Below, one piece after another: positions 1-5,372 of a DNA stretch of 64,000 bases (the first letter of the stretch is position 1; each line of letters begins with the position of its first letter). The notes beneath the pieces were generated by a model. That model did not search any database and had not been told where the DNA came from. It was given only the letters and a program-made list of their open reading frames with translations. A program made the translations under genes and the position numbers. The stretch comes from Schumannella sp. 10F1B-5-1 (GTDB taxonomy: Bacteria > Actinomycetota > Actinomycetes > Actinomycetales > Microbacteriaceae), in NCBI RefSeq assembly GCF_006517535.1, contig NZ_VHQH01000034.1, positions 186,001-250,000 on the forward strand. Reading direction: 5' to 3'.

Positions 1-2
1 TC

Positions 3-950
3 ACCGGTGGAACCGGCTCGCTCGGCAAAGCGCTCATCGCCGAACTGCTCGCGAACCACGATCCGCGCCGTCTGGTGATCTTCAGCCGCGACGAGTTGAA
101 GCAGTTCGAACTGCGCAAGGCCGTCGGAGAGGATCCGCGTCTGCGATGGTTTCTCGGTGACATCCGCAGCCGCGAGCGTCTGACCCGCGCGTTCAGCGGG
201 GTCGACTACGTCATTCACGCCGCGGCACTCAAGCAGGTCGATACGGCCGAGTACAACCCCTTCGAATTCGTCGAGACGAACGTGCGGGGTTCGCAGAACG
301 TCATCGATGCGGCGATCGACGCGGGAGTGAAGCGCGTCGTCGCCCTGTCGACCGACAAGGCGTCGAGTCCCATCAATCTCTATGGGGCGACCAAGCTCAC
401 GGGTGACCGGATGTTCATCAGCGGCAACCACTACGCCGGAGCGGCCGAGACCCGATTCTCGGTGGTGCGCTACGGCAACGTCATGGGCTCGCGCGGCAGC
501 ATCGTCCCGGTGTGGAAGGCGATGGCCGAACGCGGCGAGTCGCTCCCGATTACCGACAACCGGATGACGCGATTCTGGATCACCCTGCCGCAGGCGGTGG
601 ACTTCGTGCTCAGCGCCTTCGAGATCATGCAGGGCGGTGAGCTGTACGTGCCGCGCATCCCGTCGCTCAAGATCACCGACCTCGCCGAGGCGATCGCGCC
701 GGGGGCGCGCACGCACGAGGTCGGCATCCGCCCCGGAGAAAAGCTGCACGAGGAGATGATCTCCTTCGATGACGCGCGGCGCACGTTGCAGTTGCAGGAT
801 CGCTACGTGGTCACCCCGCACATCTCCGGCTGGGGTTGGGAGGCGCCGGCGGACGGCGCCCCGGTCGCCGACGGCTTCGCCTACCACTCGAACACCAACG
901 ACCAGTGGCTCGACGTCGAAGCGATCCGTACGCTGCTCGCCTCCGCGTGA
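3..950 (+). CDS. pseB: UDP-N-acetylglucosamine 4,6-dehydratase (PseB-like), 5'-truncated by window edge
   Basis: First step of CMP-pseudaminic-acid-type synthesis: NADP-dependent dehydration and C5 inversion of UDP-GlcNAc in the cytoplasm. The start lies left of the window; 315 residues remain. The visible N-terminus opens directly in the Rossmann motif TGGTGSLG, so only a few residues are missing. STDKA is followed by NLYGATK, which carries the YxxxK catalytic pair, and PGEKLHEEM is near the C-terminus. The tail with YHSNTNDQWLDVE matches PseB rather than the membrane-bound CapD/PglF dehydratases. It converges on the NeuB-type operon with a 13-bp gap. Codons are looser at position 3 than in the core genes to the right. 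Aminotransferase, acetyltransferase and hydrolase steps are not in view and may lie to the left. Confidence 0.85.
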   Translation, partial: TGGTGSLGKALIAELLANHDPRRLVIFSRDELKQFELRKAVGEDPRLRWFLGDIRSRERLTRAFSGVDYVIHAAALKQVDTAEYNPFEFVETNVRGSQNVIDAAIDAGVKRVVALSTDKASSPINLYGATKLTGDRMFISGNHYAGAAETRFSVVRYGNVMGSRGSIVPVWKAMAERGESLPITDNRMTRFWITLPQAVDFVLSAFEIMQGGELYVPRIPSLKITDLAEAIAPGARTHEVGIRPGEKLHEEMISFDDARRTLQLQDRYVVTPHISGWGWEAPADGAPVADGFAYHSNTNDQWLDVEAIRTLLASA

Positions 951-963
951 ACGGCGGCGACGG

Positions 964-1719
964 TCAGGACGGTCGACGTCGCGCATCCACTACGCGGTAG
1001 TCCTTCTGACGCGCGGTCTCGTGGCGGGCGAACAGCGACGGCTGAGCTTCCGCGAGATCCGCGAGCTCCTGCCAGCGGGACAGCGCGGTGAGGTGAGGTG
1101 CCAGTCTGCGCACGATCTCCAGGTCCTCGGCAGTGTCGACGGTGACACGAAGGTGGGAGAGATCGCGGGGCAGGTCGATCAGTTCGATCCCGAACCGGTC
1201 GGGGTTCTCATAGAAGTACGGGGTGACGTGCTCGCGTTGGTGGGGCTCCGTCGCTTCGGCGAGTGCGGTCCGCAGCGCTTCGGCGCTCATCGCCTCGACG
1301 TCAAGGCCGACCGGAGTGGTCCGCGTCCAGGGTGGTGGAAGGCGGTTGGTGGCGTAGTCGGCGCCACCGACGACCGCGGCGATCACCTCGTCGACGAGCG
1401 ACGGGTCGAGCAGCGGGCAGTCGGCTGTGACACGCACGATCACGTCGCCGGGCGCTTCCTCGAGGGCAGTGCCGAATCGCCCCAGCACATCGTGCAGGCT
1501 GCCGCGGACGACACGGGCGCCGAGCGAGACGGCGGCTCCCACCGTCTCCTGGTCGTCGGCCTGATCGGTCGTCGCCACGATCACCTCGTCCACGAGGGAG
1601 GCGGCTCGCAGCCGACGAACCGTGGAGGCGAGCACCGATTCGTCGCCGAGCGACGCGAGGATCTTGCCCGGCAGACGACTCGAGCCCATCCGAGCCTGGA
1701 TGACGCCGATCGTGGTCAC
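964..1719 (-). CDS. SpsF/NeuA-like sugar cytidylyltransferase
   Basis: Predicted nucleotidyltransferase that activates a nonulosonic or related sugar with CTP. 251 residues. The N-terminus IGVIQARMGSSRLPGKIL is the nucleotide-binding signature of the SpsF/COG1861 and KDO/NeuA cytidylyltransferase fold, followed by VTADCPLLDPSLVDE, which holds the metal-binding region. The GTG start at 1719 overlaps the TGA of the upstream glycosyltransferase by 4 nt (GTGA), so it is translationally coupled and last in the operon. Family membership is clear; the sugar is not determined. The adjacent NeuB homologue makes a nine-carbon acid the best guess. Confidence 0.8.
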   Translation of the reverse strand: MTTIGVIQARMGSSRLPGKILASLGDESVLASTVRRLRAASLVDEVIVATTDQADDQETVGAAVSLGARVVRGSLHDVLGRFGTALEEAPGDVIVRVTADCPLLDPSLVDEVIAAVVGGADYATNRLPPPWTRTTPVGLDVEAMSAEALRTALAEATEPHQREHVTPYFYENPDRFGIELIDLPRDLSHLRVTVDTAEDLEIVRRLAPHLTALSRWQELADLAEAQPSLFARHETARQKDYRVVDARRRPS

Positions 1720-2696
1720 GACGCGGCTCCGCGGCCGATCGCGTGCCGTGCGAGCGCGGGCAGTCGAGCGCTCGTCTGGGCCCAGTCTGCTTCCGCGGCG
1801 ACCCGCGCGGCGGCGGCCCTGGCGCGGTCGTCTCCCTCCGGGTTCAGCGCAGCGAGGATGCCAGCGGCGGCGCGGGTCGGGTCTCCGACCGGAAAGGTCC
1901 ACCCGGTCCGCTCGTCGATCCATTCGGCATTGCCGGGGATGTCGCTCACGCAGCAGCGGGTCCCGAGGGCCATCGCCTCGAGAAGTGTGATCGAGCTGCC
2001 GTCGGTCAGGGATGCGCTCAGGTACACATCGGAGTCGGCGAGCGCTGCGTCGAGATCGGTCTGGGCGAGCCTGCCGACGAACTCGACGGAGTCGTCGAGA
2101 CCCAGCTCGTGCGCCAGCCCTCGGAGATGCACCGTCTCGCTGCCATCGCCGGCGATGATCGCGCGCAGATCCGGAACGGACCGCCGGGCGATCGCGATGG
2201 CCCGGATGGCGGTCCCGACGTCGTACAGCGGCTCGTGACTGCGCGCGGAGACGACCGTGGGCGCTGGATTCGATCGCGCACGCCGAGTCAAGCCGATGCG
2301 CGCGAGATCGACGCCCCAGGCGAATCGTGCGATGCCCGTCGGCTCGGCGCCGAGCTCGAGCACGCGCCGCTCGACTGCGAGGTTGTCGACGAAGAGCAGC
2401 TCGGCGCGGCGGATCGCCCGCTCCGCCAGGCTGGCGTCGACACGGTCGGGTCCGATCAGGTCGAACCCCCACGACGTGACGATCAGCGCTCCCTGCCACA
2501 CCTGCGACACGGCCGCGGTCACCGCACCGATCGGCCCGGCCTGCACCACGTCCGGAGCGAAGCGCCCCAGCTCCCGTTCGAGGTGCGCAGACCCGACGGG
2601 CACTGCCAGCGTCTCGACTCCGCTCGCCTCCCAGGCGTCGAGAAAGCGGAGATCGTGGGTGCGGTCGATGCGATCGGACAGGTAGGCGAGCCTCAT
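1716..2696 (-). CDS. Glycosyltransferase family 4
   Basis: Retaining GT-B glycosyltransferase of 326 residues, slightly short for GT4. The N-terminal acceptor domain begins MRLAYLSDRIDRTH, and the C-terminal nucleotide-sugar domain carries SASLTDGSSITLLEAMALG, equivalent to the E(x7)E region of GT4 enzymes, followed by SDIPGNAEWI. It lies between the NeuB-like synthase and the cytidylyltransferase, with 4-nt overlaps on both sides (ATGA at 2693-2696, GTGA at 1716-1719). That placement suggests it transfers the sugar made by this operon, or builds the same glycan. Donor and acceptor cannot be read from sequence. Confidence 0.78.
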   Translation of the reverse strand: MRLAYLSDRIDRTHDLRFLDAWEASGVETLAVPVGSAHLERELGRFAPDVVQAGPIGAVTAAVSQVWQGALIVTSWGFDLIGPDRVDASLAERAIRRAELLFVDNLAVERRVLELGAEPTGIARFAWGVDLARIGLTRRARSNPAPTVVSARSHEPLYDVGTAIRAIAIARRSVPDLRAIIAGDGSETVHLRGLAHELGLDDSVEFVGRLAQTDLDAALADSDVYLSASLTDGSSITLLEAMALGTRCCVSDIPGNAEWIDERTGWTFPVGDPTRAAAGILAALNPEGDDRARAAAARVAAEADWAQTSARLPALARHAIGRGAAS

Positions 2697-3766
2697 CGCG
2701 CTGGCGTCAGGTCTTCCCAGCCGATGACCGCGTCGCGCGTGAGCTCGCTCGCGAGCACGCGTCCCACGACCTCGTCGACGTGGGCGGCTCCGATCGCGTG
2801 ACGCGGGGCCGGGCGCAGCACCGAGATGTCGTCGCGGGTGAGGACATGGCCGGCGGGCAGGTTCCGGATGACCCGCAGAGCACGTCGCTGGATGACGACG
2901 GTGTCGTGCTCGTTGTCGGCGACGCGCTTCACGGGGCTTCCCAGCGCGAGTTCGAGTTCGCGACTGCGATCGACCATCTCCCGCCAGGTCTCCGGGTCCA
3001 TCGAGAAGCCGTGGTCAGGGCCGGGACGGGTGGTGTCGTCGGTGAAGTGCTTCTCGACGACGCGAGCGCCGAGGGCGATCGCGCCGAGGGTCGTCGCATG
3101 TCCGGGGGTGTGGTCCGACAACCCGAGCACGACGTCGGGGAAGGCCGCGCGGTAGCTGTTCAGGACGTTGAGATGGATGTGGCTGAAGTTGCCGAGGTCG
3201 CCGGTGTAGTTCGTGTTGCACTGCATGAGCACGATGTCGGAGGTATGGCGTCGGATGACATCGATCGCGGCGACGACCTCGTCGAAGCTCGAGGCGCCGG
3301 TTGCGAGCAGCACCGGCTTGCCTTTCGAAGCAATCCGGTCGACCGCCTCGAGCCAGGAGAGATCACCGCTCCCGATCTTGTAAGCGGGCACCCACGGGTC
3401 GAGCATGTCGATCGCGCCGAAGTCGTAGGGGGCCGAGAAGTAGTCGATGCCGGCTCGATCGCAGGCCTCTTTGAGCGTCGGGGTCCACTCGTCTGGAATG
3501 GAGGCATCGGCGTAGACGTCGACCACCGAGCGCTCCCAGGCGGCCTGATGACCGATCTGCGTTCCCAGTTCGCGGAATCCGCGGTCGGAGACGATCTGCT
3601 CGGCGTGAAAGTTTTGGAACTTGGCGGCATCGGCGCCGGCTTCCGCAGCCAACTCGATCAGCTGTACCGCGCGGCCGAGGTCTCCGTCGTGGCTGGCCGC
3701 GATGTCGGCGATGAAGTACGTCGGGCTGTCATGGGAGACAGTCCGTGTGCCGATGGTGAAAGTCAT
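2693..3766 (-). CDS. NeuB/SpsE-family nonulosonate synthase with SAF domain
   Basis: Predicted synthase that condenses phosphoenolpyruvate with a six-carbon aldose to give a nine-carbon sugar acid (NeuB, PseI and SpsE family). 357 residues. The TIM-barrel part shows SHDGDLGRAVQLIELAAEAGADAAKFQ in two conserved blocks, GSGDLSW and the C-terminal barrel motif VVEKHFT. Residues from about 290 form the SAF antifreeze-like lid (AGHVLTRDDISVLRP). The ATG at 3766 is preceded by AAGGAGA at 8-nt spacing, which fixes the start. It overlaps the genes before and after by 4 nt. Codons are less GC-biased than in core genes. Whether the product is pseudaminic, legionaminic or another acid is unknown. Confidence 0.85.
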   Translation of the reverse strand: MTFTIGTRTVSHDSPTYFIADIAASHDGDLGRAVQLIELAAEAGADAAKFQNFHAEQIVSDRGFRELGTQIGHQAAWERSVVDVYADASIPDEWTPTLKEACDRAGIDYFSAPYDFGAIDMLDPWVPAYKIGSGDLSWLEAVDRIASKGKPVLLATGASSFDEVVAAIDVIRRHTSDIVLMQCNTNYTGDLGNFSHIHLNVLNSYRAAFPDVVLGLSDHTPGHATTLGAIALGARVVEKHFTDDTTRPGPDHGFSMDPETWREMVDRSRELELALGSPVKRVADNEHDTVVIQRRALRVIRNLPAGHVLTRDDISVLRPAPRHAIGAAHVDEVVGRVLASELTRDAVIGWEDLTPAR

Positions 3767-4701
3767 GTCGTCTCCTTGGGGTGCCAGTCGCGGATGAGCT
3801 GTGGGACGCCGCGCTCGAACTCGCGGTGGAGTTCGTCGAGTCCGTCCTGCACGGTGGGCAGCTCGGACCCCAGGCGTGTCGCCGTCGCCGTCGTGTCGAG
3901 GCTGATGTCGGAGCCTCGGGCGACGACGAGGACATCGCGAGAGCGTGCTGGCCGGATGAGGTTGGGGTCGAAGCCGAAGCGGAGAGCGAGCCGTCGGCCG
4001 AAATCGTACTTCGACACGCTGTCGCGGGCGGTCACATGCTGAATCCCGTCGACGGACCGAGCGCTGAGGGCGCGGAGAGCGCCGATGAGGTGACCGACGT
4101 GCAGGGTCGACACGCGGACGTCGGTGAATCCGCGCATCACGTCGCCGGCGACGAGACCGCGATGGAAGAACTCGGCCAGGCTGCGACGTCCGCTCGGGCT
4201 CCATCCGAAGAAGTCGACTCGCGCCACGAGCGCACTCGGCACGGTATCGAGCACCGCGTGTTCCGATTCCGCTTTCGTCGCTCCGTACACGTGTGTCGGA
4301 GAAGTGGTCTCGTCGACCCGGTAGCCTCCGCGCCGGCCGTCGAAGACGGCATCGGTCGAGATGTGGATGAATCGAGCTCCCAGCGCGTCGCCTTCCCGTG
4401 CCAGTGCCTCGGCGGCCTCGACGTTCATCCGCCGTGCGAGGTCGGGATCGCGCTCACAGGCTTCGATGTCGGCCAGCGCGGCGGCGTGGAGGATCGTCGA
4501 CGGTCGAAGGCGCTCGACCACATCGCGACGTGCGGACTCGTCCAGAAGGTCGACCGCGATGACATCGTCTCGATCGGGGGGTCTTCGGGCCACTCCGACC
4601 GCGGGGATGCCGGCGGCCTGCAGTGCGTGCATGGCGTTCGCTCCGAGCAACCCTGTCGCTCCGGTGACGAGCCAGGGACGAGCGCTCGAACCCCGATCCA
4701 T
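3763..4701 (-). CDS. RmlD-like short-chain dehydrogenase/reductase
   Basis: NAD(P)H-dependent extended SDR related to dTDP-4-dehydrorhamnose reductase (RmlD/SpsK). 312 residues from ATG 4701. It shows VTGATGLLG near the N-terminus, HAAALADIEACERDP typical of RmlD proteins, STDAVFDG and YGATKAESE (YxxxK). It is first in the operon and couples to the NeuB-like gene by ATGA at 3763-3766. The start is uncertain: there is no Shine-Dalgarno before ATG 4701, but TTGAAT lies 6 nt upstream, the leaderless spacing used elsewhere here; an in-frame TTG at 4713 would add four residues. It may reduce a 4-keto sugar nucleotide; substrate unknown. Confidence 0.75.
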   Translation of the reverse strand: MDRGSSARPWLVTGATGLLGANAMHALQAAGIPAVGVARRPPDRDDVIAVDLLDESARRDVVERLRPSTILHAAALADIEACERDPDLARRMNVEAAEALAREGDALGARFIHISTDAVFDGRRGGYRVDETTSPTHVYGATKAESEHAVLDTVPSALVARVDFFGWSPSGRRSLAEFFHRGLVAGDVMRGFTDVRVSTLHVGHLIGALRALSARSVDGIQHVTARDSVSKYDFGRRLALRFGFDPNLIRPARSRDVLVVARGSDISLDTTATATRLGSELPTVQDGLDELHREFERGVPQLIRDWHPKETT

Positions 4702-4707
4702 CCGACG

Positions 4708-4713
4708 ATTCAA
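4708..4713 (-). promoter_or_regulatory. Possible leaderless -10 box of the NeuB operon
   Basis: TTGAAT on the minus strand ends 6 nt before ATG 4701, the spacing at which transcription would start on the start codon. The match to TANNNT is imperfect and no -35 is visible, so this is weak. Confidence 0.3.
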
Positions 4714-4730
4714 TCAGACCTAGGAAGAGA

Positions 4731-4763
4731 AGAAGGGCCGGGACTCCCCGTCCCGGCCCTTCT
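4731..4763 (-). terminator. Strong hairpin with pyrimidine-rich tail (minus-strand terminator)
   Basis: A perfect 14-bp stem (AGAAGGGCCGGGAC at 4731-4744 and its complement at 4750-4763) closes a 5-nt loop. Read on the minus strand it is followed by TTCTCTTCC, a U-rich tail, so it should end leftward transcripts. It sits only 30 nt upstream of ATG 4701. It is therefore either the terminator of accDE or a spacer RNA, or an attenuator inside a leader of the NeuB operon. Confidence 0.75.
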
Positions 4764-4770
4764 GACGTTT

Positions 4771-4807
4771 CGAGTCAGGGCGACAACCCGAATATCGCCC
4801 TGACTCG
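4771..4807. repeat. Perfect 13-bp hairpin in spacer
   Basis: CGAGTCAGGGCGA at 4771-4783 is exactly complementary to 4795-4807 around an 11-nt loop. It lies 7 bp from the terminator hairpin, so on the minus strand the two form a tandem pair. It has no U-rich tail on either side. Confidence 0.8.
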
Positions 4808-4892
4808 CCCCCACATCACCGACTTGCTTACCCTTGTCAGCCGGTGTGTGTCGCGATCGCTAAGAGGATCGCTGTATGACGAGGATGCCTGA

Positions 4893-5017
4893 TCTGTACC
4901 CCGCGAAACAGTCATCATTTCGGGGGACTCGCGGGGGACATCCCCCGGAATTCCGGGCGACAACGGGAAATCGCGGGCGGAATCGGGCCTCGGGCGGGCC
5001 GAATCTCGGGGTACAGA
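4893..5017. repeat. 125-bp element bounded by perfect 11-bp inverted repeats
   Basis: TCTGTACCCCG at 4893-4903 is exactly repeated in inverse at 5007-5017. Inside are three further foldable parts: CGAAA/TTTCG at 4904-4922, CGGGGGA/TCCCCCG at 4932-4947, and the palindrome CCCGGAATTCCGGG at 4944-4957. This is the geometry of a multi-branched RNA closed by an 11-bp basal stem. A miniature inverted-repeat element is the alternative, but no flanking target duplication is seen. Confidence 0.55.
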
Positions 5018-5129
5018 ACGTGAGCGCGGGTCGAATGATCGGTTCACCCCCGCGAAACCGACGGATTCCGCACATCCGAGCTTCGGATCCCGCTTGATGA
5101 GGATCGATCGGATGCGGGGACGCGCGGCC

Positions 5130-5372
5130 TCAGCGCCCGAAGGTGCTCCACGCCCCGACCGTCACACCGCGACGCGGCGCACGCTGACTGCGCCGCGTCG
5201 CGGTCGGACGGGGATCGCGCTGCTCGCGGTTCTCGGCGGCCAGCGCATCCAGCGAGGTCGTCAGCACCGCTATGACCGCCGCCAGCTCCTCGTCGCTCGG
5301 CCTGCCCGCGACGATGCGCACGTCGGCCACGGCGGGAATCGGCGCGGCGTCGCCGTTCGGGGCGCCGCTCAC
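5130..5372 (-). CDS. accE: Acyl-CoA carboxylase epsilon subunit
   Basis: Small accessory subunit (80 residues) of actinobacterial acyl-CoA carboxylases, which stabilises the alpha-beta complex. The segment [20 protein letters not shown] is the family hallmark. The C-terminal half is Arg-rich and ends VGAWSTFGR. The ATG at 5372 overlaps the accD stop by 4 nt (ATGA at 5369-5372), as usual for accD-accE pairs. In M. tuberculosis accE5 is followed by maf and later accA3 (from memory); here the structured spacer and sugar island follow instead. Confidence 0.85.

Follow-up and report, generated by a model that had tools for sequence, protein, structure and literature searches.

A predicted structured small RNA gene of Microbacteriaceae, probably switched on by a linked LuxR-type regulator

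The spacer next to accE and the parts of the RNA gene

The window, which is the whole stretch of 64,000 nucleotides of Schumannella sp. 10F1B-5-1 that was analysed, holds at 4714-5129 a spacer bounded by accE (5372-5130, minus strand, with a Pfam ACC_epsilon match) and, at its other flank, by an RmlD-like gene. The spacer had been described as gene-free, and indeed it contains only short mechanical open reading frames (71-90 aa), with no Pfam match at E 1 for the three that were tested. Over its full length the minus strand folds at −204.7 kcal/mol where shuffled sequences average −173.4, which gives z −5.0; for the opposite strand z is −3.6. The dense folding noted in the preliminary description is real, but the signal is concentrated in 4722-4877 (z −6.93, 0 of 200 shuffles as good) and is not spread over the whole spacer, 4890-5129 giving z −2.11 with 6 of 200 shuffles as good. 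Therefore, the proposal of one minus-strand RNA starting near 5088 is unsupported: the conserved RNA begins around 4875, and the 5' half of the spacer (~4890-5129) consists of the accE 3' flank and of repeated promoter boxes, outside the conserved RNA. What stands of this proposal is a minus-strand structured RNA with the terminator hairpin 4731-4763 as its predicted end, the structure being indicated by the fold and the strand by the G-U and A-C counts given below.

A repeat search (minimum 8 nt, region 4600-5250) evidenced two large perfect hairpins, at 4731-4763 (14 bp) and 4771-4807 (13 bp). At least seven perfect inverted repeats had been claimed, but fully complementary pairs amount to five among the 25 shown, in three of these the arms are separated by 79-452 nt, and the repeats of the remaining families are imperfect. 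Likewise, the two direct-repeat pairs described as 10-11 bp are exact, but their lengths are 11 and 8 nt. The direct-repeat family D1 (4917, 4950, 5003) corresponds, on the complementary strand, to three of the promoter units, which are of GTCCCCC type and start at 5014, 4961, 4939 and 4928, their distances to the main box being 86, 33, 11 and 0 nt. A simple terminator scan of the region, with a rule of at least five T in eight bases, returned none and did not score hairpin H4. The RNA deduced from fold and alignment is made of four hairpins in about 155 nt, with predicted ends and with a terminator hairpin as the last element. Its parts are, 5' to 3' on the minus strand:

5008..5014, minus: further box unit GTACCCC, 86 nt from the main box; a distance of 86-88 nt recurs family-wide
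4955..4961, minus: further box unit GTCGCCC, 33 nt from the main box
4930..4940, minus: second box unit TGTCCCCCGCG, 11 nt upstream of the main box; same distance in 39/76 upstream regions
4910..4929, minus: main promoter box AGTCCCCCGAAATGATGACT, 0 mismatches to the family box
4882..4887, minus: -10-like hexamer CATCCT, 22 nt after the box
near 4875, minus: predicted RNA 5' end, 6-8 nt after the -10 element
4722..4875, minus: putative small RNA gene, ~155 nt (R1 match 4722-4879, 147 bits; fold z as above for 4722-4877)
4853..4872, minus: hairpin H1 (alignment and fold)
4812..4850, minus: hairpin H2, covarying stem and conserved loop, family form CUAGGGUAAGC (alignment and fold)
between H2 and H3, minus: GGGG
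4771..4807, minus: hairpin H3, nearly invariant, loop UUCGGGU (alignment)
between H3 and H4, minus: 7-nt link
4731..4763, minus: terminator-type hairpin H4 with tail TCTCTTCC (perfect 14-bp repeat and alignment)

Covariation, strand and taxonomic range

Covariation among relatives, which the preliminary description had proposed as a check, is strong. In a MAFFT alignment of 30 sequences, using an RNAalifold structure with the H1 pairs placed by hand, 94.2% of the cells pair, 25 of the 45 pairs change on both sides (15.0 in shuffles) and covariation scores 0.318, versus 0.141 in shuffles; none of 500 shuffles reaches the pairing, two-sided-change or covariation value, a result that kinship among the sequences can produce by itself. 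A larger alignment of 90 sequences, which was fitted to the model and hence leans its way, gives 96.0% pairing, two-sided changes in 37 of 45 pairs (25.3 shuffled) and a score of 0.472 (0.173 shuffled). G-U cells exceed A-C cells (213 versus 22), which places the RNA on the minus strand, and RNAalifold yields −71.6 for the minus-strand RNA and −45.0 for its reverse. Hairpins H1, H2 and H3 covary, with conserved loops, apart from H4. H3 is nearly invariant and the changes in its stem compensate, as seen in a pattern scan of 199 genomes (93 with a site) in which loop constancy is biased because the pattern includes the loop; the flanks of the loop do vary, being GTTCGGGTC in G033 and CTCGGGTC in genus g35. 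A protein-coding explanation was discarded: the frame GRVRAIFGLSP recurs, but by the script's rule an in-frame start is present in only 51 of the 90 sequences, and the stem changes compensate.

Conservation in relatives, whose absence was to refute the locus, is found across Microbacteriaceae. Within the genus the RNA spacer is better conserved than AccE itself, two species having spacer identities of 87% and 85% over 376-377 nt and AccE identities of 80% and 79%; the corresponding values are 80% over 210 nt and 49% for G004, and 93% over 58 nt and 42% for G003. Using blastn, the spacer is matched in 158 of 299 family genomes (50 of 85 genera), and a covariance model built from 30 relatives recovers the RNA in 193 of the 299 (55 of 85 genera; E 1e-4), mostly as one copy per genome. 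Second RNA-like loci were observed in genus g57 (G128 at L232, ~1390-1555; G227 at L233, ~1370-1520), with the same box and H3 loop, an H3 outer stem changed on both sides in a compensated manner, and no visible H2. Among the 20 match-free genomes listed, nine are 0.9-1.8 Mb in size. Some of the misses are false, as local searches evidence diverged copies in G038 and G112 (genus g35; 54.4 and 42.6 bits), and in G109 and G545 (genus g85; 29.3 and 27.9 bits), the latter two with a different H3 stem and the same loop UUCGGGU.

Beyond the family, searches were run with stricter filters, which can lose weak copies such as these four. Among 297 genomes of the order, matches of at least 70 bits occur in 10 genomes, all of the same family, the other matches listed reaching at most 34.4 bits; five of these weak alignments (L074-L078) were rejected, as a tRNA gene predicted by ARAGORN overlaps four of them (none in L077) and a terminator-like hairpin supplies the rest. 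Among 396 genomes of the phylum, the three matches at E 1e-4 all belong to Microbacteriaceae, with none in another family. An exact pattern scan of a collection of species genomes returned 108 stretches, and the 80 listed carry titles of Microbacteriaceae genera or of the family, or broad or unlikely ones (Micrococcales, Actinomycetota, one 'Acidobacteria bacterium'). As judged by these searches, the RNA is restricted to one family of soil and plant bacteria, the Microbacteriaceae. A mobile element was also considered and dismissed, since phages, plasmids and viral contigs (the last scanned with one exact pattern) gave no match.

The promoter box and the neighbouring signalling operon

Of 80 loci, 77 have the promoter box with four or fewer mismatches; of the remaining three, L173 shows five mismatches and the other two are truncated by the locus end. 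In 72 of the 77, the box is succeeded by a [CT]AnnnT hexamer after 21 or 22 nt. The second unit at exactly 11 nt, present in 39 of 76 upstream regions, compares with a mean of 0.19 and a maximum of 2 in mononucleotide shuffles, and distances of 86-88 nt to the main box account for 36 box-unit counts. By this comparison, the upstream repeats are promoter elements, namely a box, phased extra copies of it and a -10-like hexamer.

Outside the locus, the window genome contains, besides the RNA promoter, one other box site with three or fewer mismatches, C323:24985-25003. This site, on the minus strand (L063, L358), has the box, 22 nt, CACGGT and an ATG 6 nt further on, and the gene, which looks leaderless, encodes 114 aa with no Pfam match and adjoins a gatB-like gene. 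Across 100 genomes, 115 box-like sites elsewhere were counted against 5 for the reversed control, which fits a wider regulon or another factor. In 38 stretches around secondary sites, together with the second site of the window genome, no target gene common to many was found, and at least two of the 38 are the RNA itself (L336, L357). In two genomes of genus g5 (L329, L331), palindrome-like variants of the box lie upstream of a gene for a sigma-70-type sigma factor, identified by Pfam Sigma70 regions 2 and 4 in L329 and by likeness in L331.

The RNA usually sits between accDE and a convergent two-component operon. This operon encodes a 340-aa membrane protein that neither Pfam nor NCBIfam matches, a kinase with a HATPase_c match and a LuxR-type regulator matching Response_reg and GerE. 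Of the 80 named loci, 68 have accD upstream on the same strand and 2 have it inverted (L126 and L170, both Naasia); 7 are truncated before it and 3 gave no accD. The gene for the 340-aa protein is convergent and downstream in 71 loci and inverted in 2, while 2 gave no such gene and 5 are truncated before it. A third case with inverted accD is L056, and in none of the three has the inversion parted the box from the RNA. In G109 and G545 it is the 340-aa gene of a diverged operon that adjoins the diverged RNA, another gene (ROK-like, by reading) lying between RNA and accE. Thus, by its placement the RNA follows the signalling operon rather than accDE. In the window genome the operon matches C316:181777-184767, outside the window (which starts at C316:186001), with the sugar genes in between: the sugar operon at 1-4713 (RmlD, NeuB, glycosyltransferase, cytidylyltransferase) separates the RNA from its usual convergent neighbour. 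In Schumannella soli (L100) a NeuB-type gene is likewise found downstream of the RNA.

Considering 299 genomes, and the 340-aa protein at E 1e-60, 188 have both RNA and protein, 98 neither, 5 the RNA only and 8 the protein only (Fisher p 3e-62, a value that ignores phylogeny and linkage, linkage alone being able to produce such co-occurrence); at E 1e-15 these numbers become 190, 77, 3 and 29. Six of the eight protein-only genomes belong to genus g35, and the two that were checked both have a diverged RNA. Twelve genomes without a model match were also examined: four (G038, G109, G545, G017) have an operon match within 6 kb, three of them with a diverged RNA and the fourth, G017, with a diverged operon beside accE and no recognisable RNA, and the other eight have neither RNA nor operon. 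It is as if RNA and operon were gained or lost as a block. In genomes free of both, accE is followed by an AIR carboxylase gene (L281) or by one for a NUDIX protein (L284).

Two genomes of genus g19, G022 and G102, have the RNA with a best box of 8 mismatches, and kinase, regulator and partner are unmatched in the 8.5 and 5 kb flanks examined; the regulator may be elsewhere in these genomes. In G033 the regulator and the box are retained, and kinase and partner are unmatched in its 7 kb. Over these three genomes, from two genera, the loss of the box in the former and the retention of regulator and box in the latter favour the regulator as the ligand of the box. Self-control of the operon is not indicated, as its own promoter has no box (one other site was counted in the 80 loci, against 3 for the reversed motif). 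Overall, it is reasonably probable from these comparisons that the RNA is controlled by the linked LuxR-type regulator.

Nature of the RNA and comparison with known systems

The conserved structure, its strand, cassette behaviour, family restriction, conserved promoter and operon linkage are all established by comparison. We hold it nearly certain on these grounds that the spacer encodes a structured RNA, and very likely that this is an autonomous small RNA with the transcript ends predicted above; the reading as a whole, an autonomous structured sRNA gene switched on by the linked LuxR-type regulator, is likely. Transcription of the RNA from the minus strand would be driven by a dedicated promoter (box 4910-4929, -10-like hexamer 4882-4887, start ~4875) and would stop at the gene's own hairpin terminator (4731-4763). 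The box would be the site at which the operon's LuxR/NarL-type response regulator binds to switch the RNA on, and the RNA would then act in trans via its conserved loops, CUAGGGUAAGC and UUCGGGU, with either mRNAs as pairing partners or a protein as ligand. Complements of the loops near gene starts were looked for in the 80 loci, and none was conspicuous.

The preliminary description had left three options for the transcript, and an independent small RNA is the best of them, in view of the conserved promoter, the terminator and a cassette that is inverted relative to accDE. Having its own promoter and terminator and no tie to one downstream gene, the RNA would, by comparison, belong with trans-encoded sRNAs. 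The second option, an accDE 3' region, turned out weak, the cassette of box, RNA and terminator being inverted in L056, L126 and L170 and relocated in two genomes. Its broader version, in which the element would be a 3'-UTR or a bidirectional terminator shared by accDE and the convergent operon, with no RNA of its own, would account for the position at the accE 3' end and for the ~25 nt that separate the RNA match from the convergent gene in G268 and G129, but H1, H2 and H3 covary separately from H4, the promoter is conserved and inverted and relocated copies exist, and we consider it highly improbable. The third option was a leader, attenuator or riboswitch, of the sugar operon, which in the window lies on the same strand (RmlD/NeuB genes), the hairpin ending ~29 nt before the ATG at 4702. 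It is hardly conceivable, as the downstream neighbour common to relatives is convergent (71 of 80) and the sugar genes are not shared; for the family as a whole synteny excludes it, and a riboswitch or leader class in general, which would call for a same-strand position 5' of one gene class, was rejected on the same count. Sugar operon and accDE are bystanders.

The alternative that bears most directly on the regulator keeps the autonomous sRNA and has its box bound by another, unlinked regulator, the two-component operon being merely a stable neighbour. The operon's own promoter without a box and the box-like sites elsewhere in 100 genomes point in this direction, as does the arrangement of the box units in direct repeats with an 11-nt distance, which is familiar from OmpR/PhoB-type regulators. 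Against it, the box is lost in the sole examined genus that keeps the RNA without the operon nearby, and where another gene lies between RNA and accE, the RNA is still beside the operon; taken together, we find this alternative rather unlikely. An RNA-polymerase-binding RNA replacing Ms1 or 6S RNA in Microbacteriaceae would agree with a single conserved RNA, mostly in one copy, and with the fact that the family is unmentioned in the main text of the Ms1 survey (PMC9130861). The four separate hairpins, in place of a long rod with a central bubble, the lack of an Rfam match, and neighbours that are accDE and a two-component operon and not the HAD hydrolase gene which, in the accessible text of that survey, adjoins Ms1 (PMC9130861), make such a stand-in very unlikely. 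Returning to control by the linked regulator, a bolder extension is a family-specific circuit in which a membrane kinase, the 340-aa partner and the LuxR-type regulator have as main output one sRNA that would titrate an RNA-binding protein via its GGGU loops, a Gac/Rsm-like arrangement from unrelated parts, with the second loci of g57 as extra decoys; we regard this as speculative and doubtful.

As the preliminary description had suspected, no Rfam family corresponds to this RNA: a scan of the window and 20 relatives against Rfam 15 gave 0 matches, and region 4690-5180 has three low-scoring ones, none at gathering threshold. In the literature on Microbacteriaceae no description of such an RNA was found among the listings and the beginnings of abstracts. 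The comparative evidence indicates a real, family-restricted structured RNA gene, new to Rfam. What is gained is a family-wide structured RNA with a defined strand, a promoter, predicted ends and a candidate regulator; the operon holds a membrane protein with no match in Pfam or NCBIfam, so RNA and operon make each other testable.

Among known systems, in Gac/Rsm and Csr the regulators GacA or UvrY drive RsmY/Z and CsrB/C, and GGA motifs in loops are the mark of Gac/Rsm-type sponge RNAs. The RNA described here resembles these systems in its linked LuxR-type regulator, in the conserved box upstream of a multi-hairpin sRNA and in a repeated loop motif, and differs from them in having no CsrA-type GGA loop motif, the conserved loops being AGGGU and UCGGGU; also, the linked regulator is no GacA equivalog (39.1 bits against a cut-off of 280). 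Among enterobacterial sRNAs controlled by OmpR or PhoP are MicF, OmrA/B and MgrR, with which it would share being the output of a two-component system, here a putative link, but there is no relation in sequence or host. Ms1 is about twice as long as this RNA. According to the accessible text of the Ms1 survey (PMC9130861), Ms1/6S RNA offers the parallel of a widely conserved actinobacterial sRNA with its own intergenic locus, whereas the present RNA has neither synteny in common with the loci described there nor a central-bubble fold.
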